Position numbers and translations under genes: made by a program. A model generated the notes under the pieces. The model was not told where the DNA came from. It did not search any database and was given only the letters and a program-made list of their open reading frames with translations. This document shows positions 3,546 through 18,987 of a stretch of DNA of 44,191 nt, piece by piece. The first letter of the stretch is position 1, and each line of letters opens with the position of its first letter. Source of the stretch: Deltaproteobacteria bacterium (GTDB lineage Bacteria; Desulfobacterota; Syntrophia; Syntrophales; UBA8958); assembly GCA_029553375.1 (NCBI GenBank), contig JAKPCH010000014.1:1-44191 (forward strand), written 5' to 3'.

Positions 3546-4349
3546 TCAGGGCACCGGCCCCAGGGCCGCCTTCAGGGACCTGGTGAAACGGCAGACCTCG
3601 GCGAGGAGATCCCCCCGGAGGCGGGTTTTGTCGATCAAGGAGACGAGGGCGCTCCCCACGACGACGCCGTCGGCGAAGGGGGCCAGGCGGGCCGCTTGGT
3701 CGGGGGTGGAGATCCCGAAGCCCGCCACCACGGGCAGAGGGGTCAACTCCTTGATCCTTCTCAACTTCTCCCTGGCCTCCTCCTCGGCCGGGCGACCCGT
3801 CCCCGTCACCCCCGTCATGGTGATGTAGTAGACGAAACCGGAGGCGTCCTCGAGGATGGCCCTCATCCGCTCCTCCCCCGTCGTGGGCGCGACGAGGGGG
3901 ATGAAGTCCAGGCCCCGGCCGTCGGTGTGACGGCGCAACTCCCCGGCCTCCTCCCGGGGGAGATCGACGACGAGGAGGCCGTCCACCCCCGCCTCGGACG
4001 CCCGGCGGGCGAAACGACCCGGTCCGGCCACGAACAGGGGGTTGTAGTAACTGAACAGGACGAAGGGGAGGGAGGTGACCTTGCGGAGGTCCCGCAGCAT
4101 CTCGAGGATGGCCTCGAGGCTGGCCCCCTTTCTGATCGCCTCCTGGGAGGAGGCCTGGATCACCGGCCCGTCCGCCGTGGGATCGGAAAAGGGCACCCCG
4201 ACCTCCAGGATGTCCACCCCCGCCTCCGCCAGGGCCGGGATGAGGCGGCAGGTCGTTTCCATATCCGGGTGGCCGGCGGTGATGTAGACCACCAGGGCCT
4301 TTTCCCCCTTCTTCCGCAACTCTTCGAACTTAGAGGCTATTCTCGACAT
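3546..4349 (-). CDS. trpA: tryptophan synthase alpha chain
   Basis: Cleaves indole-3-glycerol phosphate to indole and glyceraldehyde 3-phosphate; the indole is channelled to TrpB. The 267-residue product is of normal length. With the start at ATG 4349 the catalytic pair is Glu49 (DILEVGVPFSDP) and Asp60 (PTADGPVIQ), the same numbering as the Escherichia coli enzyme. The phosphate-binding glycines are seen in VAGFGIST and DGVVVGSALV. GGGAGGGTGAG precedes the start, and the gene begins one base after the trpB stop. A longer frame reaches 4421 but would overlap trpB and lacks a comparable ribosome site. It is the last gene of the trp operon, followed by a hairpin terminator. Confidence 0.97.
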   Translation of the reverse strand: MSRIASKFEELRKKGEKALVVYITAGHPDMETTCRLIPALAEAGVDILEVGVPFSDPTADGPVIQASSQEAIRKGASLEAILEMLRDLRKVTSLPFVLFSYYNPLFVAGPGRFARRASEAGVDGLLVVDLPREEAGELRRHTDGRGLDFIPLVAPTTGEERMRAILEDASGFVYYITMTGVTGTGRPAEEEAREKLRRIKELTPLPVVAGFGISTPDQAARLAPFADGVVVGSALVSLIDKTRLRGDLLAEVCRFTRSLKAALGPVP

Positions 4350-4350
4350 C

Positions 4351-5535
4351 TCACCCTCCCGTCTCGATGGTCCCGACGTCCTTGTCACCCCGCCCCGAGA
4401 GGTTGACGATGACGATGTCATCCCCCGCCAGGGTCGGGACGAGACGAACGGCGTAGGCCAGGGCGTGGGCGCTCTCCATGGCGGGGATGATCCCCTCGCA
4501 GGCGGACAGGAGGCGGAAGGCGTCGACGGCCTCCTCGTCCCCCACGGCGACGTACCGGGCCCTCTTCCGCTCCTGGAGGTAGCAGTGTTCCGGGCCGACC
4601 CCCGGGTAGTCGAGACCGGCGGCGATGGAGTAGGCGTCCCGCACCTGACCGTGTTCGTCCTGGAGGATCTTCGTCTTGTTGCCGTGGAGGACCCCCACGC
4701 GGCCCGCCGTGAGGGAGGCGGCGTGGCGCCCGGCCTCGATGCCGGCCCCGGCCGCCTCGACGCCGATCATCCCCACCCCCCTGTCGCGGCGAAAGGGATG
4801 GAAAAGGCCCATGGCGTTGCTCCCCCCGCCCACGCAGGCGACGAGGTAACGGGGCAGGCGCCCCTCCCGGGCAAGGATCTGGCGCCTCGCCTCCCGGCCG
4901 ATGACGCTCTGGAAATCCCGCACCATGACGGGATAGGGGTGGGGACCGGCGGTGGTGCCGATGACGTAGAAGGTGTCCCGCACGTCCGTCACCCAGGCCC
5001 GCATGGCCTCGTTCATGGCGTCCTTCAGGGTGGCCGTCCCCGCCGACACGGGGACCACCTCGGCACCGAGGATCTTCATCCTCAGGACGTTGGGGGCCTG
5101 ACGCCTCATGTCCTCCTCCCCCATGAAGACCCGGCACTCCATGCCGAAGAGGGCCGCCACCGTCGCCGTGGCCACGCCGTGCTGTCCCGCCCCCGTCTCG
5201 GCGATGACCTTCCTCTTGCCCATGCGGCGTGCGAGGAGGGCCTGGCCGAGGGTGTTGTTGATCTTGTGGGAACCCGTGTGGTTCAGGTCTTCCCGCTTCA
5301 GGTAGACCTTGGCGCCCCCCAGGCGCCGGGTGAGGTTCCCGGCGAAATACAGCGGCGTCTCCCGACCGGCGTAGTCGTGGAGGTAGGCCCTGTACTCCCT
5401 CCGGAAGGACGGGTCGCGCCGCGCCTCCCGGTAGGCCTCCTCGAGGTCGATCAGGGCGGGCATGAGGGTCTCCGCCACGTACCGTCCCCCGAAGACGCCG
5501 AAATGACCATTTCTGTCGGGCATTCGTTCCTTCAT
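4351..5535 (-). CDS. trpB: tryptophan synthase beta chain
   Basis: PLP enzyme joining indole to L-serine to make L-tryptophan in the TrpA2B2 complex. The product has 394 residues, typical of TrpB1. The PLP lysine is Lys91 in [13 protein letters not shown], the N-terminal family signature [11 protein letters not shown] is present, and the phosphate cup reads [10 protein letters not shown]. The C-terminal NLSGRGDKD is intact. The start ATG 5535 overlaps the trpF stop by two bases and has GGAGGGGAG upstream; ATG 5523 is an alternative that loses four residues. Confidence 0.98.
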
Positions 5536-6263
5536 CTCCCCTCCCCCTCCCAGGCTCTCACGGCGGCCAAAAGGGCCGCCATCTTTTCACGATCCTTTAC
5601 TCCCGGCGCCTCCTCCACGCCGCTGTTGACGTCCACCGCCGCGGGGGCGACGGCCGAAAGGGCCGCGGCCACGTTCCGGGGCGCGATGCCGCCGGCGAGG
5701 ATCAGGGGCCTCTTTCCCGCCACGGCCCTCGCCAGGTCCCAGTCCGCCGTCCTGCCCGTGCCCCCCCGGCGGTCGCCGTCCCGGGCGTCCACGAGGACGG
5801 CCCGCACGGGATAGAGGTCGATCCTTTCGAGATCCCCCCGGTCCCGGGGCGAGAAGGCCTTGACGACCCGCTCGCCGGACAGGCGCCGGCAATCCTCGGG
5901 CCCCTCGTCCCCGTGGAGCTGAAAGAGATCGAGGCCGCAGCGGGAGGCGACGGCGAGGATCACCTCCGGGTCCTCATCGACGAAGACCCCCACGAGGGCG
6001 GGGCGTCGCCCCCGCCCGGCGGGCCCCGGGAAGGGGCGTGCCTCATCGCCGAAACGGCGCCTGACCTCGGCGGCGATCCCGGCGGCCCGGGACGGCTCGA
6101 TGTAACGGGGGCTCGGGCGGTGGAAGACGAACCCCAGGGCGTCCGCGCCCAGGGCGGCGGCCTCGAGGGCGTCTTCCAACCGGGTGATGCCGCAGAACTT
6201 GACGGCCGTCACGGCCTTCCCCGTCATCTCTCCGCCGCGTCCTTCAGCCCCTTTAGGCCTCAC
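5532..6263 (-). CDS. trpF: phosphoribosylanthranilate isomerase
   Basis: Catalyses the Amadori rearrangement of phosphoribosylanthranilate to CdRP, the third step from chorismate to Trp. It is a TIM-barrel protein with general base Cys in VKFCGIT (residue 24 of this start) and general acid Asp in VLVDARDG (about residue 159); GGTGRTADW and LAGGI bind phosphate. GTG 6263 overlaps the trpC stop as GTGA and has AAGGAG eight bases upstream, favouring it, although 15 residues precede the usual start; ATG 6227 would give a more standard N-terminus. Separate from trpC here, unlike the enterobacterial fusion. Confidence 0.95.
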
Positions 6264-7039
6264 CCGATGAGCTCCTTGAGTTTCGCCCCCCGGTCCGGGG
6301 CGCGCAGGATGGCCTCGCCGACGAGAAAGGCCGAGACGCCCGCCTCCAGGAGCCTCTCTATATCCCGTCGTCCCCCGATGCCGCTCTCGCTCACGACGAC
6401 CTTCCCCGGCGGCACCAGGGGGGCGAGGCGGAGAGTCACGGCGAGATCCGTCTCGAAGGTGACGAGGTCGCGGTTGTTGATCCCGATCACCTCCGCTTCG
6501 GCGTCCAGGGCCTTCTCCAGGTCCTTTTCGTCGTGGACCTCCACGAGGGGCGTCAGGCCCTCCTCCCGGCAGAGGGCCGTATATTGAGCCAGTTGACCCC
6601 TCCCCAGGATGGAGGCGATGAGGAGGAGGGCGTCGGCGCCCATGGCCGCCGTCTCCCGGATCTGGCAGGCGTCGACGACGAAGTCCTTCCTCAGGACCGG
6701 CAGGCCCGTCGCCCCCCGCGCCGCGGCGAGCAACGCCGCCGAACCGCCGAAATAGGCCCCCTCCGTCACCACGGAGACGGCCGCCGCCCCGTGGGCCTCA
6801 TAGAGGCGCGCCAGGGCGGCGGGGTCCAGGTCCTCCGTCAGGCGCCCCCGGGAGGGGGAGGCGGCCTTGATCTCGGCGATGACGGCCACCCCCCGACCCC
6901 TCAGGGCCGCCGCCAGGTCCCTCTTAAGAGCCGGGCGGGCCTTCCCCGCCGCCTCCCCGAGGGGGGAGCCCTTCTTCGCCGCCGCCACCTCCTCTCTCTT
7001 CAAGGCGACGATGCGCGCCAAAAAACCACCCGCCTCCAT
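6260..7039 (-). CDS. trpC: indole-3-glycerol phosphate synthase
   Basis: Closes the indole ring by decarboxylating CdRP. The 259-residue TIM-barrel protein carries the family motifs in order: EIKAASPSRG (Lys58), LRKDFVVDACQI (Lys118), GINNRDL and VVSESGI. Length and motifs are normal for a free-standing TrpC. The start ATG 7039 lies 13 bp after the trpD stop with a G-rich ribosome site. It overlaps trpF by four bases, so translation is likely coupled. Confidence 0.97.
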   Translation of the reverse strand: MEAGGFLARIVALKREEVAAAKKGSPLGEAAGKARPALKRDLAAALRGRGVAVIAEIKAASPSRGRLTEDLDPAALARLYEAHGAAAVSVVTEGAYFGGSAALLAAARGATGLPVLRKDFVVDACQIRETAAMGADALLLIASILGRGQLAQYTALCREEGLTPLVEVHDEKDLEKALDAEAEVIGINNRDLVTFETDLAVTLRLAPLVPPGKVVVSESGIGGRRDIERLLEAGVSAFLVGEAILRAPDRGAKLKELIG

Positions 7040-7052
7040 CCCCGGCCCCCCC

Positions 7053-8060
7053 TCAGGCGTTGCTCAGCTCGATGAGGGCCTTGAGCTTCTTCATGGCCCC
7101 TCCGCTGTCGATGGCCTCCTCGGCGACGCGGATACCCTCGGGGATCGTCGCGGCCCGCCCCCCGGCGCAGACGGCCAAGGCGGCGTTCAGGACGACGATC
7201 CGGCGCCGGGCCGACACCTCCCCGGCCAGGACGGCCTTGGTGATCTCGGCGTTTACGGCGGCGTCGCCCCCCCGGAGCTCCTCCGGGTCGTCCCTCGTCC
7301 CGAAGAGGGTCAGGGGGTCGATATTGTAGGTCCTGACGAGACCGTCGTCCAACTCGGAGACCCGCGTCTCCCCCGTGACCGTCGCCTCGTCGAGACCGTC
7401 GGAACCGTGGACGACGAAGGCGCGCCTCGTCCCCATCCGGGCCAGTACGGCGGCGAACATCTCCGTCAGCCTCGGGTCGTAGACCCCGATGAGCTGGGCC
7501 GTGGCGGAGGCCGGGTTCGTCAGGGGCCCCAGCATGTTGAAGATGGTCCTGAAACCTATCTCCCGGCGGGGGGGGAGGGCGTATTTCATCGCCCCGTGCA
7601 GGCGGGGGGCGAAGAGAAAACCGAGGCCGATCTGCTGGAGACACTCCTCCACCACCTCCGGGGGGGCCTCGATGTTCACCCCCAGGGCCTCGAGGAGATC
7701 GGCGCTCCCGCAACCGCTGGAGACGGCCCGGTTGCCGTGCTTGGCCACCGTCAGGCCCGCCGCCGCCACGACGAAGGCGGCGGTGGTGGAGATGTTGAAG
7801 GTGTTGCGTCCGTCGCCGCCCGTCCCGCACGTGTCCACCACGGTGTGGGAACGGGCGTCGATGCGCGTCGCCATGCGCCTCATGACCTTCGCGGCCCCCG
7901 AGACCTCCTCCACCGTCTCGCCCTTCATCCGCAGGGCCGTCAGGAGGGCGGCGATCTGGGCCGGCGTACCTTGCCCTTCCATGATCACCGTCATGGCCGC
8001 GGCCGTCTCGTCTTCCGTCAGGTCCGCGCCGTTTACGACCTTTGCCAGGATCTCCTTCAT
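7053..8060 (-). CDS. trpD: anthranilate phosphoribosyltransferase
   Basis: Transfers the phosphoribosyl group of PRPP to anthranilate. Of 335 residues, with the PRPP loop DTCGTGGDGRNTFNIST, the anthranilate/PRPP segment KHGNRAVSSGCGSAD and the metal-site region (VHGSDGLDE). I start it at ATG 8060, sharing one base with the trpG stop; GTG 8063, just before it, sits eight bases after the GGAGG inside the end of trpG and is equally possible. The GTG at 8072 overlaps that ribosome site and is unlikely. TrpD is not fused to TrpG as it is in Escherichia coli. Confidence 0.97.
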   Translation of the reverse strand: MKEILAKVVNGADLTEDETAAAMTVIMEGQGTPAQIAALLTALRMKGETVEEVSGAAKVMRRMATRIDARSHTVVDTCGTGGDGRNTFNISTTAAFVVAAAGLTVAKHGNRAVSSGCGSADLLEALGVNIEAPPEVVEECLQQIGLGFLFAPRLHGAMKYALPPRREIGFRTIFNMLGPLTNPASATAQLIGVYDPRLTEMFAAVLARMGTRRAFVVHGSDGLDEATVTGETRVSELDDGLVRTYNIDPLTLFGTRDDPEELRGGDAAVNAEITKAVLAGEVSARRRIVVLNAALAVCAGGRAATIPEGIRVAEEAIDSGGAMKKLKALIELSNA

Positions 8061-8650
8061 CACGCGGCGCACCTCCTTTCCCCCTTCGCCATCTCCAGAA
8101 AGTTTCTCAAGAGCCGCTTCCCCTTGGGGGTCAGGACCGACTCGGGGTGGAACTGGACCCCCTCGACAAGGTAGTGGCGGTGACGCAGGGCCATGATCTC
8201 CCCCTCGGCCGTCTGGGCCCCGACCTCCAGGCAGGGGGGGATGGTCTCGGGTCGGACGATGAGGGAGTGGTAGCGGCCGGCCTCGAAGGGCGAGGGGAGG
8301 CCGGCGAAGACGCCCTTCCCGTCGTGGAAGACCGCCGATGTCTTGCCGTGCATGAGGCGCCCCGCCCCGACGACCTCGGCGCCGAAGGCCCTGGCGATGG
8401 CCTGGTGGCCGAGGCAGACGCCGAGGATGGGAAGGGTGGCGTGGAACTCCTCGATGAGGGGAAGGGTGACGCCGGCCTCCTCGGGCCGACCCGGTCCCGG
8501 CGAGAGGACGACGGCGTCGGGGTCGAGGAGGGCGACCCCCTTGAGGTCGATCTCGTCGTTCCTCCTCACGACGGTCTCGGCGCCCAGTTGCCTCAGGTAC
8601 TGGACGAGGTTGTAGGTGAAGGAATCGTAGTTGTCGATGACAAGGACCAT
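8060..8650 (-). CDS. trpG: anthranilate synthase component II (glutamine amidotransferase)
   Basis: Class I glutamine amidotransferase that releases ammonia for TrpE. Of 196 residues, with oxyanion loop LSPGPGRPEEAG, nucleophile Cys79 in GVCLGHQAIA, and the His168-Glu170 pair in GVQFHPES. GGAGG sits just before ATG 8650. The same family serves folate synthesis (PabA); with no second copy visible here, a dual role cannot be excluded, but the place between trpE and trpD supports TrpG. Confidence 0.96.
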   Translation of the reverse strand: MVLVIDNYDSFTYNLVQYLRQLGAETVVRRNDEIDLKGVALLDPDAVVLSPGPGRPEEAGVTLPLIEEFHATLPILGVCLGHQAIARAFGAEVVGAGRLMHGKTSAVFHDGKGVFAGLPSPFEAGRYHSLIVRPETIPPCLEVGAQTAEGEIMALRHRHYLVEGVQFHPESVLTPKGKRLLRNFLEMAKGERRCAA

Positions 8651-8660
8651 AAAAACCTCC

Positions 8661-10169
8661 TTAAAAATCCGTGATATCCAGGCCCGCCGCCGCCATGGAC
8701 GCCGCCCGGAGCATCCCCGCGGCCTTGGCGGCCGTTTCCTCGTATTCCGCCTGGGGGTCCGAATCGGCCACGATCCCGGCCCCCACCTGGAGGGACAGCT
8801 CCCGCCCCCTGAGCTCCAGGGTCCGGATGGTGATGCAGAAGTCCATCCCTCCCCCGTAGGCGAAGTAGCCCACGGCCCCCCCGTAGGCCCCCCGGTCCTG
8901 TGGTTCCAACTCCGCGATGATCTCCATGGCCCTCACCTTCGGGGCCCCCGTCAGGGTCCCGGCGGGGAAACAGGCCCGGAAGAGGTCGAAGGCGTCCTTT
9001 CCCTCCTCCAGCTCCGCCCGGATGGTCGAGACGAGGTGCATGACGTGGGAGTAGCGCTCCACGTTCATGTAGGCGGTGACCTGGACGCTCCCCGTCCTCG
9101 CCACCCTCCCCAGGTCGTTCCTCCCGAGGTCGACGAGCATGACGTGCTCCGCCCTCTCCTTCGGGTCCCCGAGGAGCTCGTCCGCCAGGCGCCGGTCCTC
9201 CTGCTCCGTCCGCCCCCTCCGCCTCGTCCCGGCGATGGGCCTCAGGAGGGCCTCGTCGCCCTCGAGGCGCACCATCACCTCCGGGGAGGAACCGATGAGG
9301 TGGAGGTCTTCGCACCTCAGGAAAAAGAGGTAGGGGGAGGGGTTGATGAACCTCAGGGCCCGGTAGAGGTCCAGGGGGGGCAGATCGACCTCCCCCCTCA
9401 GACGGCGCGAGAGGACCACCTGGATGGCGTCGCCCCTGACGATATGTTCCTTGGCCCGGCGGACGAGGTCCCGGAAGGCGGCGGGCGTCACGTCGCTCTC
9501 CAGGGACGGGGCCGCCGCCCGCGCCGCCGCACCGAGGGAGGGCGTGACGGCCCCCCGGCCCTCCCCCAGGGCGGAGATCATCCCCTCGACCCGCCCCACG
9601 GCGCGCCCGTAGGCCTCCGCGGCGTCCCCGTCCCCCTCCTCGACGGCGGCGTAGGAGACCACCTTGAGGGTGTGGCGGACGCGGTCGAAGACGATGACGG
9701 TGTCGGTGATCATGAAGGCCCCCAGGTCCCTCTCCTCGTCCCTCGTCAAGAGACCACGGAGGCGGTCCTCGAAGAAGCCCACGGCCTCGTAGTTGAAGTA
9801 ACCCACGGCCCCCCCGCAGAACCGGGGCAGGTGAGGCAGAGAGACCGTCGGCCCCTCCGAGACGATCCCCCTCAGGACGCCGAGGGGGTCGCCGTGGTGG
9901 GGCACGCGGCGGACGGAGCCGTTTTGCATGATCACCACCTCCCGTGCCCGCAGGCGGACCACCGCCCGGGGGTCGGTGCCGATGAAGGTGTAGCGGCCCC
10001 ATTTCTCCCCCCCCTCGACGCTCTCCAGGAGAAAGACGAAGGGGCGGTCGCAAAAACGTTTGAGGACCGTCACGGGCGTCTCGCCGTCGGCGAGGATCTC
10101 CCCGTAGACGGGCACCCTGGCGCCCCCCTCGGCGAGGCGCCGGAACTCTTCCCAGGTCGGACGGATCAT
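8661..10169 (-). CDS. trpE: anthranilate synthase component I
   Basis: Makes anthranilate from chorismate using ammonia from TrpG. The 502-residue product has the Trp-binding element FLLESVEGGEKWGRYTF near the N-terminus, so feedback inhibition by tryptophan is expected, and a chorismate-binding domain with PIAGTRRRG, VDLGRNDLGR, FPAGTLTGAPKVRAM and GGAVGYFAYGG. GGGAGTCGAGAA precedes ATG 10169. First structural gene of the trp operon, 24 bp beyond the attenuator terminator. Confidence 0.97.
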   Translation of the reverse strand: MIRPTWEEFRRLAEGGARVPVYGEILADGETPVTVLKRFCDRPFVFLLESVEGGEKWGRYTFIGTDPRAVVRLRAREVVIMQNGSVRRVPHHGDPLGVLRGIVSEGPTVSLPHLPRFCGGAVGYFNYEAVGFFEDRLRGLLTRDEERDLGAFMITDTVIVFDRVRHTLKVVSYAAVEEGDGDAAEAYGRAVGRVEGMISALGEGRGAVTPSLGAAARAAAPSLESDVTPAAFRDLVRRAKEHIVRGDAIQVVLSRRLRGEVDLPPLDLYRALRFINPSPYLFFLRCEDLHLIGSSPEVMVRLEGDEALLRPIAGTRRRGRTEQEDRRLADELLGDPKERAEHVMLVDLGRNDLGRVARTGSVQVTAYMNVERYSHVMHLVSTIRAELEEGKDAFDLFRACFPAGTLTGAPKVRAMEIIAELEPQDRGAYGGAVGYFAYGGGMDFCITIRTLELRGRELSLQVGAGIVADSDPQAEYEETAAKAAGMLRAASMAAAGLDITDF

Positions 10170-10193
10170 TTCTCGACTCCCAAGGGACCAAAC

Positions 10194-10225
10194 AAAAAGG
10201 CCGTGCTCCGAGGCACGGCCTTTTT
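10194..10225 (-). terminator. trp attenuator terminator
   Basis: Perfect 13-bp stem (10194-10206 with 10213-10225), six-base loop, ending on the minus strand in GGCCTTTTTGTTTG. It lies between the leader peptide stop (10304) and trpE (10169), the place of an attenuator. The 17 bases at 10189-10205 are identical to 18771-18787 in the aroF attenuator. Confidence 0.88.
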
Positions 10226-10245
10226 TCGAGATGAGGGCGAACGAA

Positions 10246-10282
10246 AAGGCCGCGGAGCACCCGGCGGGTTCCCCGCGGCCTT
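10246..10282 (-). promoter_or_regulatory. trp leader hairpin (candidate antiterminator or first terminator)
   Basis: 10-bp stem AAGGCCGCGG / CCGCGGCCTT (arms 10273-10282 and 10246-10255), followed on the minus strand by TTCGTT. Its 5' arm can instead pair with CGCGGCCT at 10332-10339, immediately after the Trp codons, and its 3' arm can pair with AAAAGGCC of the following terminator. These exclusive pairings are what an attenuator needs. The direction of control cannot be decided by eye. Confidence 0.6.
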
Positions 10283-10303
10283 CGATTCCCTGTCAGTCAA
10301 AGA

Positions 10304-10378
10304 TCAACGGCGGCGGACGAACCCCTCCCTGAGGCCGCGCCACCACCAGCTGTTCCTTCCGCTTACGAAAATCATCAT
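10304..10378 (-). CDS. trpL: trp operon leader peptide with three tandem Trp codons
   Basis: A 24-residue reading frame, MMIFVSGRNSWWWRG followed by a basic end -FVRRR-stop. It starts at ATG 10378 with GAGG five bases upstream; a second ATG follows at once. Three consecutive TGG codons occupy 10348-10340. It lies upstream of trpE and ahead of two hairpins, the last a strong terminator. This is the classic layout for ribosome-mediated attenuation by charged tRNA-Trp. Too short for routine gene calling. The Arg-Arg-Arg-stop ending matches that of the aroF leader. Confidence 0.88.
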   Translation of the reverse strand: MMIFVSGRNSWWWRGLREGFVRRR

Positions 10379-10396
10379 CGATTCCTCACCGATGCC

Positions 10397-10424
10397 GCCT
10401 AACAGAACCTTTCACCCCTGTCAA
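10397..10424 (-). promoter_or_regulatory. candidate trp promoter
   Basis: TTGACA (10424-10419) overlaps the tyrA stop, and TTAGGC lies 16 bp further (10402-10397). The -35 is perfect and the -10 poor. The distance from TTGACA to the leader start (41 bp) is close to that in the aroF leader (47 bp). Read-through from tyrA is the alternative way to transcribe trp. Confidence 0.4.
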
Positions 10425-11155
10425 CCCTTTTTTGTCAAGGCCTCCATTTGCTCCCGGAAAAGATCGAGGAAGCGTCTCGCGTGGGGCCCCACGTGGGGAT
10501 TCTCCCCCACCAGGGCACGGTAGAGGGGGGGATTGGCCGAGACGCGGTCCACGAGGTCCATCCGGGCCCGAAAGGCGGGGGTGGAGAAGGCCGCCAGTTC
10601 CTCCCGGGAGAGACCGCCGGCCGCGACGGCCAGGCCGAAGACGAGGTTGTCGAGGTGGTTCAGACCCTGGACGACGGCCATGATCTCGTCGTGGCGCCCG
10701 GCGTCGGCGACGACGACCCGGGCCCCCGCCTCCTTAAGGACCCGGGTGATCCAACCCCGCCCCTCCTCTCCCCGGCCGGGGCAGAGGACGACGTTCTCCC
10801 CCCTCAGGGAGGTCACCCGGGGGCCGAAGAGGGGGTGGAGGCCCACGACCTCGCCCGGGGCCGTCTCCATCATGGCCGCCATGGCCTCGACCTTCAGGGA
10901 GGTGAGGTCCATGAGGAGGGAGTCGGGCGGCAGGTGGGCCCCCACGGCCCGGATCACCTCCACCGTGGCGGGGATGGGGACGGCGACGACGACGACCCGG
11001 CAGAGGCCCGCCAGCTCCCGCGGCGAAGGCCCCTCCCTCCTGCCCGCCGTCACGACCTCGTGACCCCGTTTACGGAAAAAGGCGGCGAACCAGGCGCCCA
11101 TGCCGCCCGTGCCGCCCATGATCCCGATCTTTTCCCTGTCCCAGCGCTCCCCCAC
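10421..11155 (-). CDS. tyrA: prephenate dehydrogenase
   Basis: Oxidatively decarboxylates prephenate to 4-hydroxyphenylpyruvate, the tyrosine branch. Of 244 residues, short for the family and without a C-terminal ACT domain. The N-terminus has the NAD(P)-binding loop IGIMGGTGGMGAWFA; the characteristic GLHPLFGP and the helical segment QGLNHLDNLVFG follow. GTG 11155 starts four bases after the aroC stop with GGGGTGAG upstream. Cyclohexadienyl (arogenate) dehydrogenase activity is possible. It ends the aro block, and the trp leader starts about 40 bp later. Confidence 0.92.
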   Translation of the reverse strand: MGERWDREKIGIMGGTGGMGAWFAAFFRKRGHEVVTAGRREGPSPRELAGLCRVVVVAVPIPATVEVIRAVGAHLPPDSLLMDLTSLKVEAMAAMMETAPGEVVGLHPLFGPRVTSLRGENVVLCPGRGEEGRGWITRVLKEAGARVVVADAGRHDEIMAVVQGLNHLDNLVFGLAVAAGGLSREELAAFSTPAFRARMDLVDRVSANPPLYRALVGENPHVGPHARRFLDLFREQMEALTKKG

Positions 11156-11159
11156 GGTC

Positions 11160-12218
11160 TCACCCCCCCACGACGGCCCGCTGACGCAGGAGGTGGTCCG
11201 CCAGGACCAGGCAGACCATGGCCTCGCAGACGGGGAGGATCCGGGGGAGGACGCAGACGTCGTGGCGTCCCCGGACGCGGATCTTCCGCGGTTCTCCCCG
11301 CACGTCGACGGTCGCCTGCGGGGCCGCCACGGAGGGGATGGGCTTGCAGGCCGCCCTCAGGACGATCTCCTGGCCCGTGCTGATCCCCGCCAGGACGCCG
11401 CCGGCGTTGTTGCTCAAGAACCCCCCGGGGACGAGGGGGTCGTTGGCGGCGGTCCCCCTCATGGCGGCGGCGGCGAAACCGGCCCCGATCTCCACGGCCT
11501 TCACCGTCCCGATGCCCATGAGGGCCCCCGCCAGGGCGGCGTCGAGTTTCTCGAAGACCGGTTCCCCCAGGCCCGGCGGGCAGCCCGTGACCCTGATCTC
11601 GCAGACGCCCCCCACGGTGTCCCCTTCCCTCCGGCAGTCGGCCAGGACCTTGGCCATGGCCGCGAAGGCCTCGGCGTCGGGGCAGGCAAGGTCGTTGCCC
11701 CGGGCTTCCTCTTCGCGGAAGCGGGTGATCCCGACACCGCCTACGGCCACGGTGAAGGCCCTGACGACCATCCCCGCCCGGCCGATGACCTTCCGGGCCA
11801 CGGCCCCGGCGGCGACGCGGGCCGCCGTCTCCCGCCCCGACGCCCTGCCCCCGCCCCGGTGGTCCCGGTGGGAGTATTTCATCCAGTAGGTGAAGTCCCC
11901 GTGGCCCGGGCGGAACACCTCCCTCAGCTCCTCGTAGGGGGCCGGGTCGGCGTCGGCGTTCCTTATCAGAAGGGCGATGGGGGTCCCCGTCGTCTTCCCC
12001 TCGAAGACCCCCGAGAGGATCTCCACCCGGTCCCCCTCCCGCCGGGTCGTGGCGAAGCGGCCCCGGCCCGGACGGCGCCGGTCGAGGTCCCCCTGGATGT
12101 CCTCCTCCCCCAGGGGGAGGCCCGGGGGGCAGCCGTCGATGACGGCCCCGACGGCGGGGCCGTGGGACTCGCCCCAGGTGGTCACCCGAAAGACGCTGCC
12201 TATCGTGTTGCCGGCCAT
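11160..12218 (-). CDS. aroC: chorismate synthase
   Basis: Last step of the shikimate pathway, converting EPSP to chorismate with reduced FMN. The 352-residue product is of normal length. The signatures [43 protein letters not shown] and the RGGGRASGRETAARV loop are all seen. GGGAGAACTGAGATT precedes ATG 12218, which overlaps the end of aroK by 19 bp. The reduced-flavin requirement suits an anaerobe but does not prove it. Confidence 0.97.
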   Translation of the reverse strand: MAGNTIGSVFRVTTWGESHGPAVGAVIDGCPPGLPLGEEDIQGDLDRRRPGRGRFATTRREGDRVEILSGVFEGKTTGTPIALLIRNADADPAPYEELREVFRPGHGDFTYWMKYSHRDHRGGGRASGRETAARVAAGAVARKVIGRAGMVVRAFTVAVGGVGITRFREEEARGNDLACPDAEAFAAMAKVLADCRREGDTVGGVCEIRVTGCPPGLGEPVFEKLDAALAGALMGIGTVKAVEIGAGFAAAAMRGTAANDPLVPGGFLSNNAGGVLAGISTGQEIVLRAACKPIPSVAAPQATVDVRGEPRKIRVRGRHDVCVLPRILPVCEAMVCLVLADHLLRQRAVVGG

Positions 12219-12733
12219 AATCTCAGTTCTCCCATGATCTCTTGGGCCGCCTCCGGGGGCGTGAGCCCCGTCGTCTCCACGACCAGATCGGCGACGGACC
12301 GATAGAGGGGGACCCGTTCCTCAAGGGCCGCGAGGGTGTCGGCGACGAGATCGCCGCCCTTGAGGGACGGCCGCTGGGGGGCCGTCTTCCCATCGGCGGC
12401 GATCCTTTTGATGAGCTCTTCCGGCGCCGCCGCGAGGTAGACGAAGACACCCCTCCCCCTCAGGAGGCGGACGTTTTCGGGGTCCACGACGGCACCGCCC
12501 CCGAGGGCGATGACGGCGTCGTCCGTTTTCTCCGCCAGGTCCCGGACGGCCTCCCTCTCCAGGCGGCGGAAGGCCCCCCACCCCCCCCGGGCGACGACGG
12601 CGGCGATGGAGGCGCCCGAACGCTCCTGGACCATGGCGTCCGTGTCGTAGAAGGGTCTTTTCAGCCACCGGGCCAGGAGGGCCCCCACCGTCGTCTTGCC
12701 GGCCCCCCGGAAACCGATGAGGACGAGGTTCAT
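12200..12733 (-). CDS. aroK: shikimate kinase
   Basis: Phosphorylates shikimate at the 3-hydroxyl using ATP. Of 177 residues, with P-loop GFRGAGKTT (7-15), shikimate-binding DTD (30-32), ALGGGAVVD as the Walker-B-like glycine segment, and the lid region around RPSLKGGD. Start ATG 12733 overlaps the aroA stop as ATGA, so the very long open frame running upstream is not the gene. Confidence 0.96.
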   Translation of the reverse strand: MNLVLIGFRGAGKTTVGALLARWLKRPFYDTDAMVQERSGASIAAVVARGGWGAFRRLEREAVRDLAEKTDDAVIALGGGAVVDPENVRLLRGRGVFVYLAAAPEELIKRIAADGKTAPQRPSLKGGDLVADTLAALEERVPLYRSVADLVVETTGLTPPEAAQEIMGELRLWPATR

Positions 12734-14019
12734 CTCAAACCCCCAAGGGTCTCCCAGAAGGAGGGGAAGGACTTGGCCACGCATGAGGGGTCGCGGATGA
12801 CCATGGACCCCGTGGCCATCCCCAGGGCGGCGAAACTCATGGCGATGCGGTGATCGTCGTAGGTCTCGATCTCGGCCCCGTGGGGTCTCCCCCCCTCGAT
12901 GACGAGGCCGTCCGGGGTCTCCCAAACCGAAACCCCCGTCTTCTTGAGCTCCGTCGCCAGGGCCTTCAGACGGTCGCTCTCCTTGATGCGGAGGTGGGCG
13001 GCGTTCTCGATCACCGTCCTCCCCTCCCGGCAAGCCGCCACGACGGCCAGGGTGGGGACCAAGTCCGGCGTGTCCCCCATGTCGAAGACCATCTCCCCCC
13101 CGGGCAGGGGGCCGCCGATCACCGCCACCCCCCCGCCCTCGGCCTCGACGCGACAGCCCAGGCGGCCCAGGTGCCCCAGAAAGGCCGCGTCGCCCTGGAG
13201 GGTCCGGGGCGGGAGGTTCGTCACCACCACGGCGGCCCCGCACAGGGGGGCGAGGGCGAGGAAATAGGAGGCGCTCGAGGCGTCCCCCTCCACGGCGAAC
13301 ACCCCGGGGCGGTAAGGTCTCCCGGCGGGGATGAGCCAGGACCGGGGGTCGGGGTGGGAGACACGGACGCCGAAGGCCTCCATGACCCCTTTCGTCATGG
13401 CCAGGTAGGGGCGGGACGTCACGGACCCCGCCAACTCGATCTCCACGTCCCTGCGGGCGTAGGGGGCCGCGATCATGACGGCCGAGACGTACTGGCTGCT
13501 GTCGAGGTCCCCGAAGACGGCCCTTCCCCCTTCGAGGCCCGCCGCCTCCAGGGTCAGGGGCGGACACCCCTCCTTCCCCTCGTAGCGCACGACGGCGCCC
13601 ATACCGGCGAGGACCACCGCGAGGGGGGCCACGGGGCGCTGGTGGAGGCGCTGTGTGCCCCTGAACCTGAAGGGGCCCCGCCCGAGGGCGGCCACACCCA
13701 TGACCAGACGCAGGGCCGTGCCGTTGTTCCCCACGTCTATCCCGGAAGGGGGACAGGCCACGGCGCCGGCCGTACCCGTGACGACGAGGTCGTTCCCCCT
13801 TCTTTCGATCACCGCCCCCAGGCGGCCGAGGGCCTCCATGAGGACGAAGGTGTCCTCCGAGAGGAGGGCGTCGCGGATCACCGAGGTCCCCGCCGCCAGG
13901 GAGGCGATGACCAGGGCCCGCTGGGTGTAGCTCTTCGAGCCGGGGACGGTCACCGTCGCCTCCCTTTTTTGCCATTTCTCCACCTTAAACGTCGGGCCCA
14001 TCCTCCCCTCGCTTTCCAT
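12730..14019 (-). CDS. aroA: 5-enolpyruvylshikimate-3-phosphate synthase
   Basis: Condenses shikimate 3-phosphate with phosphoenolpyruvate. About 429 residues. The signature elements are VPGSKSYTQRALVIASL near the N-terminus, DVGNNGTALRLVMG, LDSSQYVSAVMIAAP, EGDASSASYFLALA and DDHRIAMSFAALG near the C-terminus. I chose ATG 14019 because GGGGA lies six bases upstream; GTG 14031 and ATG 14001 are alternatives and differ only before the first beta strand. It overlaps the end of aroE. Confidence 0.96.
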   Translation of the reverse strand: MESEGRMGPTFKVEKWQKREATVTVPGSKSYTQRALVIASLAAGTSVIRDALLSEDTFVLMEALGRLGAVIERRGNDLVVTGTAGAVACPPSGIDVGNNGTALRLVMGVAALGRGPFRFRGTQRLHQRPVAPLAVVLAGMGAVVRYEGKEGCPPLTLEAAGLEGGRAVFGDLDSSQYVSAVMIAAPYARRDVEIELAGSVTSRPYLAMTKGVMEAFGVRVSHPDPRSWLIPAGRPYRPGVFAVEGDASSASYFLALAPLCGAAVVVTNLPPRTLQGDAAFLGHLGRLGCRVEAEGGGVAVIGGPLPGGEMVFDMGDTPDLVPTLAVVAACREGRTVIENAAHLRIKESDRLKALATELKKTGVSVWETPDGLVIEGGRPHGAEIETYDDHRIAMSFAALGMATGSMVIRDPSCVAKSFPSFWETLGGLR

Positions 14020-14851
14020 CGTTTTCCCCACCGCCGGATCCGGGGACGGGGAGACCGACCCCCTCGTAGAGGGCCTTCTCCATGACCGCCAGGGGCGGGG
14101 TCAGGCCCGTCCAGATCCGGATCTGTCCCGCCCCCTGGTGGAGGAACATCCTCAGACCGGATACGACGAGGCACCCCGCCCGATCGGCCAGGGTCAGGAG
14201 CCTCGTCCGGGGGGGGCGATAGACGGCGTCCATGACCCACCGAAAACGCCCCAGTTCCCTTTCCCCCAGAAGGGAGGCGTCCTCGTTAGGCGCCATCCCC
14301 ACGGGGGTGGTGTGGATGAGGCCCTCGGCCTCCACGCGGCCTATCTCCCCGAGGGGCACGAAGGCGCAACCGAAGGCGCCTGCCAGGGCCTCGCCCCGGC
14401 CGCCGTCGCGGTTGACGACGACGGGGATCCCGCCGGCGGCCCGAACGGCGAAGACGGCCGCCCTCGCCGCCCCCCCCGCCCCGAGGACGGCCACGACGGC
14501 ACCCGCCATGGACGTCCGTTCCTCGACGCCCGCCCGGATGCCGAGCCAGTCCGTGTTGAAACCCACCAGACGGCCGGCGTCGTTCCTGACGGTGTTGACG
14601 GCGCCGATGGCGAGGGCCTCCCCCGCCACCTCGTCCAGGTAAGGGATGATGACCTCCTTCAGGGGCATGGTGACGCTCACCCCCCTGAGGCCCCTCTCCC
14701 TGATCGTCGCGACGCAGGCCGCGGCCGCGGCGACGGGGTAGGCCTCGTAGGCGGCCTCGATCCCCAGGGCCGCGAAGGCCGCCCGGTGCATGGCCGGGGA
14801 GAGGCTGTGACCCAGGGGGAACCCGCAGAGTCCGAAGGGGGCCTTACCCAT
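13985..14851 (-). CDS. aroE: shikimate 5-dehydrogenase
   Basis: NADP-dependent reduction of 3-dehydroshikimate. Of 288 residues. The substrate motif GHSLSPAMHRAAF, catalytic Lys65 in VTMPLKE and Asp101 in GFNTDW match the Escherichia coli enzyme in position. The nucleotide loop is VLGAGGAARAAVFA, followed by VVNRDG. ATG 14851 is preferred over ATG 14857 because GGAGG lies six bases before it. The gene overlaps both neighbours. The C-terminal 20 residues are a low-complexity acidic/Gly tail. Confidence 0.96.
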   Translation of the reverse strand: MGKAPFGLCGFPLGHSLSPAMHRAAFAALGIEAAYEAYPVAAAAACVATIRERGLRGVSVTMPLKEVIIPYLDEVAGEALAIGAVNTVRNDAGRLVGFNTDWLGIRAGVEERTSMAGAVVAVLGAGGAARAAVFAVRAAGGIPVVVNRDGGRGEALAGAFGCAFVPLGEIGRVEAEGLIHTTPVGMAPNEDASLLGERELGRFRWVMDAVYRPPRTRLLTLADRAGCLVVSGLRMFLHQGAGQIRIWTGLTPPLAVMEKALYEGVGLPVPGSGGGENDGKRGEDGPDV

Positions 14852-15536
14852 CCTCATCCTCCCCCAGGACGGCCAGGAGCCTCGTCATCTCCCCCACGCC
14901 GAACTGACCCGGCGCCGTGGGTCCCGCCGTGTCGAGGCGGCAGTAGGTGAGGGGGCTCCCCAAGAGGGCCCCATAGACGCGGCTCATCCGCCCGGCCTCT
15001 CCCATGGCGAAGGCCACGACCTCCCGTCCCTCCCGGCGCCCCCGCGGGATGAGACTCAGGACGCGCAGGCCGTCGGCGGCCGTCTCGGCCCGGGTGACGA
15101 TCTTTATCACGTCGGCGCCCGCGTCCCGGCAGGCCCGGTACCTCCCCGCCAGGGTCGCCGCGGGCGGCGTCCCGGCGAGGTCGTGGTGGGAGATGATGAG
15201 CCTCGTCCTTTTCCCCCCCCTTTCGACGGCCGCCGACAGGGCCTCCCGGAGGGCCCGCGGCGTCCTCAGCTCCACGTCCACGTAATCCACCCCCGCCTCG
15301 GCCGCCGCGATGAGGGGGGCGATCCGCTCCTCTTCCGTCCCCGTGAAGCACCCGCCCTCGTCGCGGCGCCGGTTCGTGACCACGAGCCTCCCCGGCCCGG
15401 CGTGCCAGAAATCGGCGGGGATCCCCCCCCTGAGACGGTCCAGGCGCACCTCGACGACCCCGGCGGCGCCCGCGGCCTCCACACGGAGGCGGCGGGCCTC
15501 CTCGACCGTGGCGGGCAGGACGGAGACGCAGATCAT
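14844..15536 (-). CDS. aroD: 3-dehydroquinate dehydratase, type I
   Basis: Schiff-base dehydration of 3-dehydroquinate to 3-dehydroshikimate. Of 230 residues. The catalytic His lies in LIISHHDLAG (about His118) and the Schiff-base lysine is Lys145 in DVIKIVT; EVRLDRL and TNRRRDEGG form the rest of the site. Type I, not the smaller type II enzyme. ATG 15536 shares a base with the pheA stop and has GGAGGG upstream. Confidence 0.95.
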   Translation of the reverse strand: MICVSVLPATVEEARRLRVEAAGAAGVVEVRLDRLRGGIPADFWHAGPGRLVVTNRRRDEGGCFTGTEEERIAPLIAAAEAGVDYVDVELRTPRALREALSAAVERGGKRTRLIISHHDLAGTPPAATLAGRYRACRDAGADVIKIVTRAETAADGLRVLSLIPRGRREGREVVAFAMGEAGRMSRVYGALLGSPLTYCRLDTAGPTAPGQFGVGEMTRLLAVLGEDEDG

Positions 15537-16615
15537 CAGTCGCCCTCCTTACGGGGATAGGAGCCGAGGATCTTCAGGGAGGAGGTCTTCCCCTCCAGGG
15601 CGGCGAGACACGACCGGAGGGGTTCCATCCCGGCGTGGCCCTCGAGGTCCACGAAGAACAGGTATTCCCACATCCGCTCCCGGATGGGGTGGGACTCGAT
15701 GCGCAGCAGGTTCACCCCCGCCGCCGCGAAGGGGCCGAGGGCCTCGTGGAGGGCCCCCGGGGCGTGGCGGGTCGTGAAGAGGAGCGACGTCTTGTCCCGT
15801 CCCGAGGGAGGCGTGGCCCTCCGGCCCAGGACCAGGAAACGGGTCGTGTTGCGCGGCGAATCCTCGATCCCCTCGACGGCGACCTTCATGCCGTGGATCT
15901 CCGCCGCCAGGCGCCCGCCCACGGCCGCCGCGTCCTCTTCCCCCCTGGCCCGCTCCACGGCCCGGGCCGTGCTCTCCGTCTCCACCCAGAGGGCCTGGGG
16001 GAGGTTCTCCCGCAACCACCGGCGGCATTGACCGAGGGCCTGGGGATGGGAATAGACGCGGCGGATCCCGTCCGTGCCGCCGTCGGCCGTGACGAGACAG
16101 TGGGAGACCCTCAGGCAGACCTCGGAGACGATGACGAGGGGCGTCGTGACGAGGCGCTCCAGGGTCGTCTTGACGGACCCCTCCCGGGAGTTCTCCACGG
16201 GGACCAGGGCCAGGGCGGAGGCGTCCCTCTCCGCCGCGTCGAAGACGTCGGGGATGGCGGGGGCGAAGAGGCACCTCGCCCCCCTCCCGAAGACGCGCTC
16301 CACGGCCGCGTGGCTGAAGGAGCCCGCCGGACCGAGGCAGGCCACCGTCACGGGTCCCTGAAGGGCCCGGCAGGCGGCCAGGATCTCGCGGTAGATCTCC
16401 TTGAGAGACTCGGGAGCCAGGGGGCCGTCACCGGCCCGGGCGATCCTCTCCATGACCCGGGCCTCCTGGGCGGGATCGTAGAAGGCCATCCCCGCCCGTT
16501 CCTTCAGCTCCCCCAACGCGCGGGCCAGAGCGGCCCGCTCGTTCAGGAGGGCCACGATCCCCTCGTCGAGGCGGGCGATCTCGGCCCGGAGCCTCTCCAT
16601 CTCCGTCCCCGTCAC
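15536..16615 (-). CDS. pheA: bifunctional chorismate mutase / prephenate dehydratase
   Basis: P-protein making prephenate and then phenylpyruvate, the phenylalanine branch. Of 359 residues. Residues about 5-85 are an AroQ mutase helix bundle (ERLRAEIARLDEGIVALLNE, then RAALARALGELK). Next is the dehydratase with GPAGSFSHAA, VPVENSREGSV and TTRFLVLG. An ACT regulatory domain ends the protein (GALHEALGPFAAAGVNLLRI). Where the usual Phe-binding motif reads ESRP this protein has ESHP, a possible change in feedback control. GTG 16615 overlaps the aroB stop and has GGAGGAGGG upstream; ATG 16600 is an alternative. Confidence 0.95.
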   Translation of the reverse strand: MTGTEMERLRAEIARLDEGIVALLNERAALARALGELKERAGMAFYDPAQEARVMERIARAGDGPLAPESLKEIYREILAACRALQGPVTVACLGPAGSFSHAAVERVFGRGARCLFAPAIPDVFDAAERDASALALVPVENSREGSVKTTLERLVTTPLVIVSEVCLRVSHCLVTADGGTDGIRRVYSHPQALGQCRRWLRENLPQALWVETESTARAVERARGEEDAAAVGGRLAAEIHGMKVAVEGIEDSPRNTTRFLVLGRRATPPSGRDKTSLLFTTRHAPGALHEALGPFAAAGVNLLRIESHPIRERMWEYLFFVDLEGHAGMEPLRSCLAALEGKTSSLKILGSYPRKEGD

Positions 16616-17703
16616 GACCGTCCCTCCTCCAGGACCTCCCGGACCAGCGCCGGGGGCACCCCGCCGTTGATGAAGGGCATGCCGGGCCGTTTCAGGAGGA
16701 CGAAGTTGATCCGCTCCCCTTCCTTCTTCTTGTCCCTCTTCATGGCCTCCATGACGGCCTCCGTCTCCACGCCGGCGGGCAGGGCGACGGGGAGGCCCAG
16801 GCTCGTCAGGCACCTCACGATCCGCTCCCGGTCCTCTCTCGGGAGGTGGCCCAGCCGTTCCGACAGGCCCGCGGCGGCGGCCATGCCCATCGCCACGGCC
16901 TCGCCGTGGGGGATGACGTAACCCGAGGCGGCCTCCACGGCGTGACCGACGGTGTGGCCGAAGTTGAGGACGCGCCTCACCCCCCGCTCCTCCTCGTCTA
17001 TCTCGACGATCCCCTTCTTGATCCGGCAGGAGCGGGAAACGACGGTCGTCATGAAATCCCTGTCCCGATCCTCGAGGGCCTTGCGGTTGGCCTCGAGGAG
17101 ATCCAGGAGATCCGGTTCCTCGATGATGCCGTACTTGACGATCTCCGCCAGGCCGTTGACGAACTCCCGGGGGGGCAGGGTCTCGAGGAGCTCCAGGTCG
17201 ATGATCACCGCCTTCGGCTGGTGGAAGACCCCCAGGATGTTCTTCGCCCCCCCCTCGTCCACGGCCGTCTTGCCCCCGACGGCGCTGTCCACCTGGGCCA
17301 TGAGGGTCGTGGGGACCTGGATGTAAGGTATGCCCCGCATGTAAACGGCGGCGACGAAACCCGTCAGGTCCCCCACGACGCCCCCTCCCAGGGCGATGAG
17401 GGCCGAGGAGCGGTCCGCCCCCTGGGCCGCCAGGGCCCGGGCGACGGCGAGGGCGGTCTCGACGGTCTTGGAGGCCTCCCCCGGGGGGAAGGTGACGCTT
17501 TGGGCCGCAAGGCCCATATCGGCGAGAAGGCCCATCAGGCGCCTGCCGTGGTGGTGGAAGACCCGTTCGTCGGAGACGACGGTATAATCCCTCCCCCACC
17601 CGCTGCGGGCGATCATGAAGACCCCCCTATCGAGGATCCCGAAACCGATGTGGATGTCGTAGGAGACGGAGGGCCGGGGGAGATTGACGCGCAGGGTCTT
17701 CAT
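16612..17703 (-). CDS. aroB: 3-dehydroquinate synthase
   Basis: NAD- and metal-dependent cyclisation of DAHP to 3-dehydroquinate. Of 363 residues. The NAD segment [20 protein letters not shown], the [20 protein letters not shown] signature, the metal ligands in [20 protein letters not shown] and the His of [10 protein letters not shown] are all present. ATG 17703 overlaps the aroF stop (ATGA), with GGGAGG upstream. The C-terminus ends at the pheA start overlap. Confidence 0.97.
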
Positions 17704-18722
17704 GCCCGGCCTCCCTTTCCCATGGCCGCCTTCATGACCCCGATGTCCGCCATGAGATCGTAGAACTTCTCGGGCTTGAGGGACTGCATGCCGTCCGAGA
17801 CGGCCTTCTCCGGTTCGGGGTGGACCTCGACGATGATCCCGTCGGCCCCCACGGCCACGGCGGCCCGGGCCAGGGGCCGGACGTAACGCCAGTTGCCCGC
17901 GGCGTGGCTCGGGTCCACGATGACGGGGAGGTGGCTCAACTCCTTCAGGACCACGACGGCGCTCAGGTCGAGGGTGTTTCTCGTCGCCGTCTCGAAGGTC
18001 CTGATCCCCCGCTCGCAGAGGATCACCTCCTCGTTGCCCCCGGAGAGGATGTACTCCGCCGACATGAGGAGCTCCTCCACGGTGGTCATCATCCCCCTCT
18101 TGAGGAGGACGGGCTTGCGGGCCCTCCCCACGGCCTTGAGGAGGGCGAAGTTCTGGGCGTTGCGGGCGCCGATCTGGAGGATGTCGGCGTACCGCTCCAC
18201 GAGGTCCACGTCGGAGGTGTTGACCACCTCCGTGACGACGGGCAGGCCCGTCCGGTCCCCCACCTCCCTCAGGAGGCGCAGGCCCTCCTCCTCCATGCCC
18301 TGGAAGCTGTAGGGGGAGGTGCGGGGTTTGAAGGCCCCGCCCCTCAGGACGTCCGCCCCCGCCTTCTTCGCCACGTAGGCGCACTCCATGAGCTGTTCCT
18401 GGCTCTCCACGGCGCACGGACCCGCCATGACGGTGAAGGTCCCCCCCCCGATCCTCAGGGGCCCGACGGGGATCACCGTGTCCTGACCCCTGAACTCCCG
18501 GCTCGCCAGTTTGTAGGGCTTGAGGATGGGCATGACCTTCTCCACCCCCCCCATGAGGGCGATGTTCTGGAGGTGTTCCTTCCCCCGCCCGTCGCCGACG
18601 GCGCCGATGATGGTTCTCTCCACCCCCGCCGAGACGTGGGGCCGGTAACCCACCGACTCGATCCACTCCACGACCCGTTCTATCTGCCTCTCCGAGGCGT
18701 TTTTCTTCATCACGATCACCAT
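17700..18722 (-). CDS. aroF: 3-deoxy-7-phosphoheptulonate (DAHP) synthase, type I-beta with regulatory N-domain
   Basis: Commits phosphoenolpyruvate and erythrose 4-phosphate to aromatic synthesis. Of 340 residues. The first 70 or so residues form a ferredoxin/ACT-like domain ([17 protein letters not shown]) like the Thermotoga maritima enzyme, where this domain mediates feedback by Tyr and Phe. The barrel has [55 protein letters not shown] and [12 protein letters not shown] 18722 is preferred, with GGAGG ten bases upstream. First structural gene after the aromatic leader peptide. Confidence 0.96.
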
Positions 18723-18775
18723 GACCCAACTACCTCCTCCGGGCCCGGGCACCGCCGCCGCCCCGGCGGTCAAAC

Positions 18776-18814
18776 AAAAAGGCCGTGGGCGGCATCTTCG
18801 ATCCGCCCATGGCC
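18776..18814 (-). terminator. aro attenuator terminator
   Basis: On the minus strand GGCCATGGGCGG (18814-18803) pairs with CCGCCCACGGCC (18792-18781) over 12 positions with one A-C mismatch, a ten-base loop, then TTTTT (18780-18776). It sits between the leader peptide stop (18849) and aroF (18722). Confidence 0.85.
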
Positions 18815-18848
18815 CTGGTTTTTCTATCTCTTTCGGTTTAAGTCAGAA

Positions 18849-18935
18849 TCACCGGCGCCTCGGGCAGACCTGTCCGTAGAAATAGAAATAACCGAACCAG
18901 CGGTTTGTCGTCTCTCTACGGTTAGGTCTGTTCAC
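18849..18935 (-). CDS. aromatic leader peptide upstream of aroF (28 aa, WFGYFYFY)
   Basis: A reading frame from GTG 18935 to TGA 18849. Residues 13-20 read W-F-G-Y-F-Y-F-Y: one Trp, three Phe and three Tyr codons in eight positions, then GQVCPRRR-stop. AAGGAG (18951-18946) lies ten bases before the GTG. An intrinsic terminator follows and then the operon for the common aromatic pathway plus pheA and tyrA. The inference is ribosome-mediated attenuation sensing Phe, Tyr and perhaps Trp together. Too short for routine gene calling; I know of no standard name for this gene. Confidence 0.82.
   Translation of the reverse strand: MNRPNRRETTNRWFGYFYFYGQVCPRRR
18865..18930 (-). promoter_or_regulatory. 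long leader hairpin spanning the aromatic codons
   Basis: In the transcript CAGACCT and CCGTAGA (18930-18924, 18921-18915) pair with TCTACGG and AGGTCTG (18880-18874, 18871-18865): two 7-bp stems separated by a 2x2 internal loop. Most aromatic codons lie in the loop and the last Tyr codon in the 3' arm. A translating or stalled ribosome must disrupt it, so it is a candidate attenuator stem. An inner AACCG/CGGTT pairing is also possible. Confidence 0.65.
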
Positions 18936-18958
18936 GCCCCGGTTTCTCCTTCGGACCT

Positions 18959-18987
18959 TTGAGATCACATCCCCGTTTGCCTGTCAA
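18959..18987 (-). promoter_or_regulatory. candidate aro operon promoter
   Basis: TTGACA (18987-18982), 17-bp spacer, TCTCAA (18964-18959), preceded by a run of ten T on the minus strand. The -10 is poor, and the implied start point falls just before the leader ribosome site. Geometry resembles the candidate trp promoter. Confidence 0.4.

Follow-up and report, generated by a model that had tools for sequence, protein, structure and literature searches.

The aroF operon of this Syntrophales bacterium is preceded by a short leader ORF with a run of tryptophan, phenylalanine and tyrosine codons, and the arrangement is very probably a ribosome-mediated attenuator of transcription, of the kind classically known for trp, phe and his, whose codon block is multivalent. 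The window, meaning the whole 44,191-nt stretch of DNA that was analysed, holds this leader together with a supraoperon reaching from aroF to trpA (Table 1). A broader reading, for and against which the balance is regarded as even, is that the single leader integrates the charging of tRNA-Trp, tRNA-Phe and tRNA-Tyr for the whole shikimate/Phe/Tyr(/Trp) supraoperon and belongs to a modular Syntrophales family whose members have most of the switch in common and differ in an exchangeable codon block (W/F/Y ahead of aro genes, W ahead of trpE and of a protein of outer-membrane type, F ahead of a Liv-type ABC transporter, Leu ahead of leuA), with hisL-like tandem terminators in most members.

Table 1. 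Features of the two attenuators and the supraoperon in the window
Feature	Position	Strand	Details
Promoter-like element	18960..18987	(-)	TTGACA 18987-18982 and TGTGATCTCA 18969-18960
Shine-Dalgarno AAGGAG of leader ORF (assigned from sequence)	18946..18951	(-)	10 nt 5' of GTG
Leader ORF	18849..18935	(-)	GTG 18935 to TGA 18849; 28 aa, VNRPNRRETTNRWFGYFYFYGQVCPRRR*
Control codons W-F-G-Y-F-Y-F-Y (leader codons 13-20)	18876..18899	(-)	7 aromatic
Region 1, AGACCTAACCGTAGA	18915..18929	(-)	pairs with 18880-18866; duplex -21.6 kcal/mol, z -3.4
Region 2, GGTCTGCCC	18862..18870	(-)	near-invariant in Syntrophales; partner is region 1 or region 3
Region 3, GGGCGGATC	18800..18808	(-)	antiterminator partner of region 2; 5' part is terminator 5' arm
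Intrinsic terminator T1 (regions 3:4) with T-run	18775..18815	(-)	GGGCCATGGGCGG-loop-CCGCCCACGGCC-TTTTT
aroF, DAHP synthase (PRK08673/TIGR01361)	17700..18722	(-)	first gene of operon
aroB-pheA-aroD-aroE-aroA-aroK-aroC-tyrA-trpE-trpG-trpD-trpC-trpF-trpB-trpA	3546..17703	(-)
Second attenuator	10193..10438	(-)	inside supraoperon, between tyrA and trpE
Promoter-like TTGACA of second attenuator	10438-10415	(-)
Trp-only leader (WWW) before trpE	10378-10304	(-)	MMIFVSGRNSWWWRGLREGFVRRR*
Two tandem terminators of second attenuator	10283-10242, 10226-10193	(-)

A first-pass annotation had given the leader its coordinates, its 28 residues and its seven aromatic codons at positions 13-20, and all of these are as described. 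The ribosome site it proposed corresponds to the AAGGAG ahead of the GTG, the long hairpin it drew over the codons is borne out by the fold of the 191-nt leader RNA (-79.1 kcal/mol, z = -6.1), which encloses the aromatic codons, and the intrinsic terminator it placed at 18776-18814 was found at 18815-18775. When the 300 nt 5' of the window's aroF were shuffled with dinucleotides preserved, seven aromatic codons in nine never arose (0/2000) and six in nine arose in 4/2000 shuffles; the comparative support for the leader is far stronger than this single-sequence figure. About 3% of the relatives' shuffled upstream regions do reach six aromatic codons in nine, as would suit a reading in which the ORF with its aromatic run is fortuitous and the hairpin serves only to terminate some unrelated small RNA; this reading is scarcely credible and is already contradicted by the comparative sequence data, in which 112 of 119 loci have the leader, codon selection is specific to one frame, and both the spacing and the promoter element are conserved.

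These comparative data begin from the nearest genomes, in all of which AroF was found (100/100), the named relatives being mostly Syntrophales, Syntrophaceae or Smithella. Alignment among relatives had been proposed as a check on the first reading, to which close relatives with neither aromatic codons nor a terminator would have been fatal; in the event the aromatic codons are kept while the flanks change, in other orders of the phylum as well, and 112 of the 119 distinct Syntrophales (Desulfobacterota) aroF upstream regions hold a leader of 23-34 aa with an aromatic block, nearly all of these 112 with a terminator. The seven exceptions include a locus whose leader has the region 2 box in another frame (L045), one at a contig end (L141) and one interrupted by Ns (L166). 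At one locus (L106, G036:C95) the leader has apparently been lost, a promoter-like sequence directly joining the retained terminator before aroF.

All three residues are kept in 105/112 leaders and F and Y only in the other 7/112; the order of the aromatic codons and the flanks vary, and the position of W moves (the leader at locus L115 of genome G044 reads MDRAVERNNSKYFSYYWYFFLKICPLLRVG). Within the nine-codon block, codons for W, F or Y number 800 and other codons starting with T only 9; aromatic codons make up 79% of the block in frame 0, compared with 14% and 19% when it is read in the two alternative frames, which points to selection on the encoded residues and not on T-richness. The geometry is likewise held, the last aromatic codon lying 2-3 codons before region 2 in 105/112 leaders and the stop 8-9 codons beyond region 2 in 99/112. 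Upstream, TTGAC occurs at most 130 nt 5' of the leader start in 101/103 loci (16 expected; median 61 nt), in an element with the consensus CTTGACA followed by TGTGTTTTTAT. The short motif TTYTAYTTYTAYGG proved about as frequent in the relatives as its reversed control, and AroF upstream regions were used instead. Two further observations concern the surroundings of these leaders: a Shine-Dalgarno-like AGGAGG stands just 5' of the leader stop in 49/112 loci, where no start codon was seen downstream, and a cobalamin riboswitch (RF00174, 96 bits) lies near one aroF leader on the opposite strand (L221, 996-1162, (-)).

In terms of sequence the parts of a ribosome-mediated attenuator are in place: an ORF that has a putative ribosome site and whose control codons specify end products of the operon, a Rho-independent terminator between the leader and the first gene, and predicted 1:2, 2:3 and 3:4 pairings that are mutually exclusive and selectable by ribosome position. 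The R1:R2 duplex is better than shuffles in 70% of loci and R2:R3 in 91%, region 1 lying close to the leader start and region 3 here comprising the terminator 5' arm and loop. Covariation was assessed on a 78-sequence alignment, in which the 3:4 terminator covaries (94% paired, 39 double-change cells, 0/500 shuffles as high) and the 2:3 antiterminator is paired in 92.9% of cells against at most 42% when slid; within Syntrophales the covariation of 2:3 is not above shuffles (35/500), because region 2 hardly varies. Two features of the alignment lend independent support to 2:3, namely a conserved GAUC in the terminator loop, whose sole possible partner is region 2, and columns 84-85, which fit region 2 more closely than region 4.

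Region 2 is a fixed RNA box, GGUCUGCCC, across Syntrophales leaders, where it is also read as a conserved C-terminal VCP; this would suit a nascent-chain arrest peptide of the TnaC type, responsive to free aromatic amino acids and not to tRNA charging. The box is conserved as RNA, however, with GGUCUGCCC or CGUCUGCCC falling in other frames at three loci, where region 2 reads GVGRSAH (L045), GPGLPVG (L209) and RPSARV (L223) in place of VCP. These changes of frame argue against an arrest peptide, the order of the aromatic residues is freely permuted, and the candidate was rejected as very improbable. A T-box or riboswitch was also rejected, there being no covariance-model match; a search of the window with Rfam, its Trp and Phe leaders included, gave nothing above the gathering threshold, and matches up to E 10 were at chance level.

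The attenuator reading was explored by computed masked folding, in which the RNA downstream of the ribosome footprint was folded. A ribosome placed at the stop codon lets the terminator form in 76/76 loci; stalling at the last six aromatic codons yields the antiterminator in 99% of loci, for transcripts with region 4 still incomplete. In the window, the stop-codon position gives 10 terminator pairs, and a ribosome stalled at F17, Y18 or F19 gives 8.8-9.9 antiterminator pairs with near-complete antitermination even at equilibrium; stalls at W13, F14 and Y16 hardly differ from the absence of a ribosome at equilibrium if upstream RNA is allowed to re-pair, region 1 then pairing again across the ribosome. 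From this difference phenylalanine and tyrosine are predicted to be the stronger signals and tryptophan the weaker one. In many relatives the full-length equilibrium folds favour the terminator even when the ribosome is stalled, and the model therefore needs kinetic trapping.

According to the proposed mechanism, transcription would start just 5' of the leader ORF. When charged tRNA-Phe, tRNA-Tyr and tRNA-Trp are plentiful, the ribosome would reach the stop codon and cover region 2, and the 3:4 terminator would form before aroF; when an aromatic aminoacyl-tRNA is short, the ribosome would stall within the W-F-Y block a few codons 5' of region 2, disrupting region 1 so that 2:3 pairs, the terminator is blocked and transcription continues into the operon. 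In an untranslated leader 1:2 would form and termination would be the default. Ribosome stalling, premature termination and a response to each amino acid would follow from this arrangement, and a response to tyrosine, and to tryptophan above all, is one that we infer.

The strongest evidence for the codons as sensors is the contrast among leaders of the same genomes. A covariance model of region 2 and the terminator matched several loci per genome, and codon counts differ sharply by downstream class: W118/F303/Y430 in the 112 aro leaders, W0/F140/Y4 in 23 ABC transporter leaders and W94/F1/Y5 in 28 trpE leaders. The trpE class has WWW or WWWW (WRWW in one case) in 28 of the 30 trpE genes examined, and most trpE genes internal to a supraoperon likewise have a W-run leader, the window's included. 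At the loci examined the codon block fits the downstream function wherever that function is known, so that the retention of all three residues at aroF is probably best read as sensing of all three; the earlier proposal that one leader senses several aromatic amino acids at once gains support from the W-only, F-only and Leu-only leaders alongside it. As with multivalent attenuators such as that of ilvGMEDA, the codons stand for several end products, and selection has retained them.

Several of these loci merit description in their own right. Phe-coded leaders (FFSFFSFF type) with a similar switch stand before a Liv-type (Peripla_BP_6) ABC transporter operon with an AMP-ligase, both in the window's own genome (L344/L349, G000:C95) and at loci within L332-L365, and the coding of the leader suggests that this operon handles or takes up phenylalanine or a derivative. 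WWW leaders with a similar switch precede an outer-membrane-type protein of the Phenol_MetA_deg family (PF13557) at L329, L330, L331 and L334, and Leu-run leaders with related terminators precede leuA at L342, L357, L358, L361 and L363.

A narrower account, doubtful yet of real weight, is that the attenuator effectively senses only phenylalanine and/or tyrosine and that the Trp codon is a passenger. The aroR leader of C. glutamicum is a precedent, having a Tyr codon without a response to tyrosine (PMC11802643); W is single in most leaders and missing from 7/112, early stalls are predicted to antiterminate poorly in the window's fold, and tryptophan has its own leader before trpE. Against these points, W is kept in 105/112 leaders despite its moving position, and it occurs in the leaders of other orders too; the ABC transporter Phe leaders share the same chassis and have no W in 23 loci, so W is no by-product of the chassis. 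The idea that W is confined to leaders of operons with trp genes was rejected, as most leaders without downstream trp genes have W and one locus with trp genes (L063) has a leader without it.

The multivalent reading of the aroF leader can be set in the context of the operon that it precedes. The gene order from aroF to tyrA given in the first-pass annotation was confirmed, though the operon does not end there: trpE-G-D-C-F-B-A follow on the same strand. Control of the entire common pathway from the leader, as then suggested, fits the gene order; the trp half, however, has its own attenuator. The two attenuators may thus form a two-tier circuit, in which aromatic supply would be read at aroF and tryptophan supply at trpE.

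For most Syntrophales other than the window, the best explanation may be extended, with a likelihood somewhat below even, to a six-segment switch resembling hisL, in which 1:2/3:4/5:6 would terminate twice and 2:3/4:5 would read through both terminators. A second hairpin with a T-run is present in 99/111 loci, about 70 nt after the leader stop, and region 4 can pair with the 5' arm of this second terminator in 68/68 partial transcripts tested, the duplex beating shuffles in 87%. Both terminators share the self-complementary CCATGG, however, so that the 4:5 pairing may be incidental; moreover, equilibrium favours 5:6, and the second terminator is absent in the window.

In other groups of the phylum, aroF upstream regions carry aromatic leaders with unrelated flanks, such as MKQGLADRFYGFWFYFNYFYGGPPVG, MELNRFFNAYYFFFWFGFYFRPSARVEV and MGRNTWQSLYFYYYCSYHRGGWAPGMR, and W also occurs in aroF leaders of other orders; in many of the upstream regions examined from elsewhere in the phylum an aromatic leader is absent. 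In several of these leaders region 2 has diverged and can still pair with the terminator arm of its own locus (CGUCUGCCC with GGGCAGACG; ACUCUGCC with GGCAGAGU), and a cross-phylum duplex test (own -22.3 vs swapped -17.4 kcal/mol) leans toward 2:3, with some exceptions. Two aromatic leaders before aroF (L246 and L256) lie outside the 2:3 scheme, the leader tail pairing an intermediate segment (CCCATCC/GGATGGG) and not the terminator arm; judging by these pairings they are a different switch layout.

That the leader is conserved throughout a large bacterial group suggests that it alone may read the supply of the whole aromatic family. If true, the aromatic pathway would have an attenuator answering to three amino acids, on a logic familiar from the branched-chain ones, located where the pathway begins and retained through an order made up mostly of uncultured syntrophs. 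The exchange of codon blocks on a single switch amounts to a natural experiment on codon-based sensing, and attenuator codons may suggest substrates for poorly annotated transporters. With a pan-aromatic leader at aroF and a Trp-only leader at trpE, a supply/demand split within one transcript becomes testable.

Classical and multivalent attenuation are already known, and the aroF case is a variant, the mechanism itself not being new. The pheL and trpL leaders of E. coli are classical attenuators, each sensing one amino acid and controlling one branch; they share with the Syntrophales leader a short ORF with control codons, 1:2/2:3/3:4 alternatives and an intrinsic terminator before the first gene, but each answers to a single end product, whereas the Syntrophales leader combines codons for three. 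In the ilvGMEDA (Ile/Val/Leu) and thr (Thr/Ile) operons the codons of a single leader represent several amino acids made by one common pathway, although these are branched-chain and threonine pathways, not aromatic ones, and there is no homology. A mixed Trp/Phe/Tyr leader, of which the earlier annotation knew no standard description, was not found described in the non-subscription literature searched.

Closer in gene context is the uORFC-13-1 motif before aroF in Acholeplasma (24 sequences; PMC8632094), a uORF with Phe codons and a terminator, which is defined by at least one Phe residue only and has another structure in other organisms. For the aroA'-aroB'-pheA-aroF-tyrA-trp supraoperon of Desulfovibrio vulgaris, a putative attenuator was listed in 2005 (PMC1173090, Table 7); the likeness is that of a predicted attenuator before a combined aro/trp supraoperon in a deltaproteobacterium, although the tabulated entry derives from a terminator/antiterminator database and, as listed there, does not describe a leader peptide or codons. 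The Syntrophales leader is judged, on the comparative sequence evidence, to be a real multivalent ribosome-mediated attenuator akin in principle to aroR of C. glutamicum and the ilv leaders. The actinobacterial aroR also places an aromatic-codon leader peptide before an aroF (DAHP synthase) operon under ribosome-mediated attenuation; its Phe-Tyr-Phe leader, in which no Trp codon is described, responds to phenylalanine and not to tyrosine (Neshat et al. 2014, reviewed in PMC11802643), so that codons by themselves are no proof of response. In comparison to aroR, the Syntrophales leader usually contains 6-8 aromatic codons, with Trp, Phe and Tyr all represented, and stands before a whole aro(-trp) operon.
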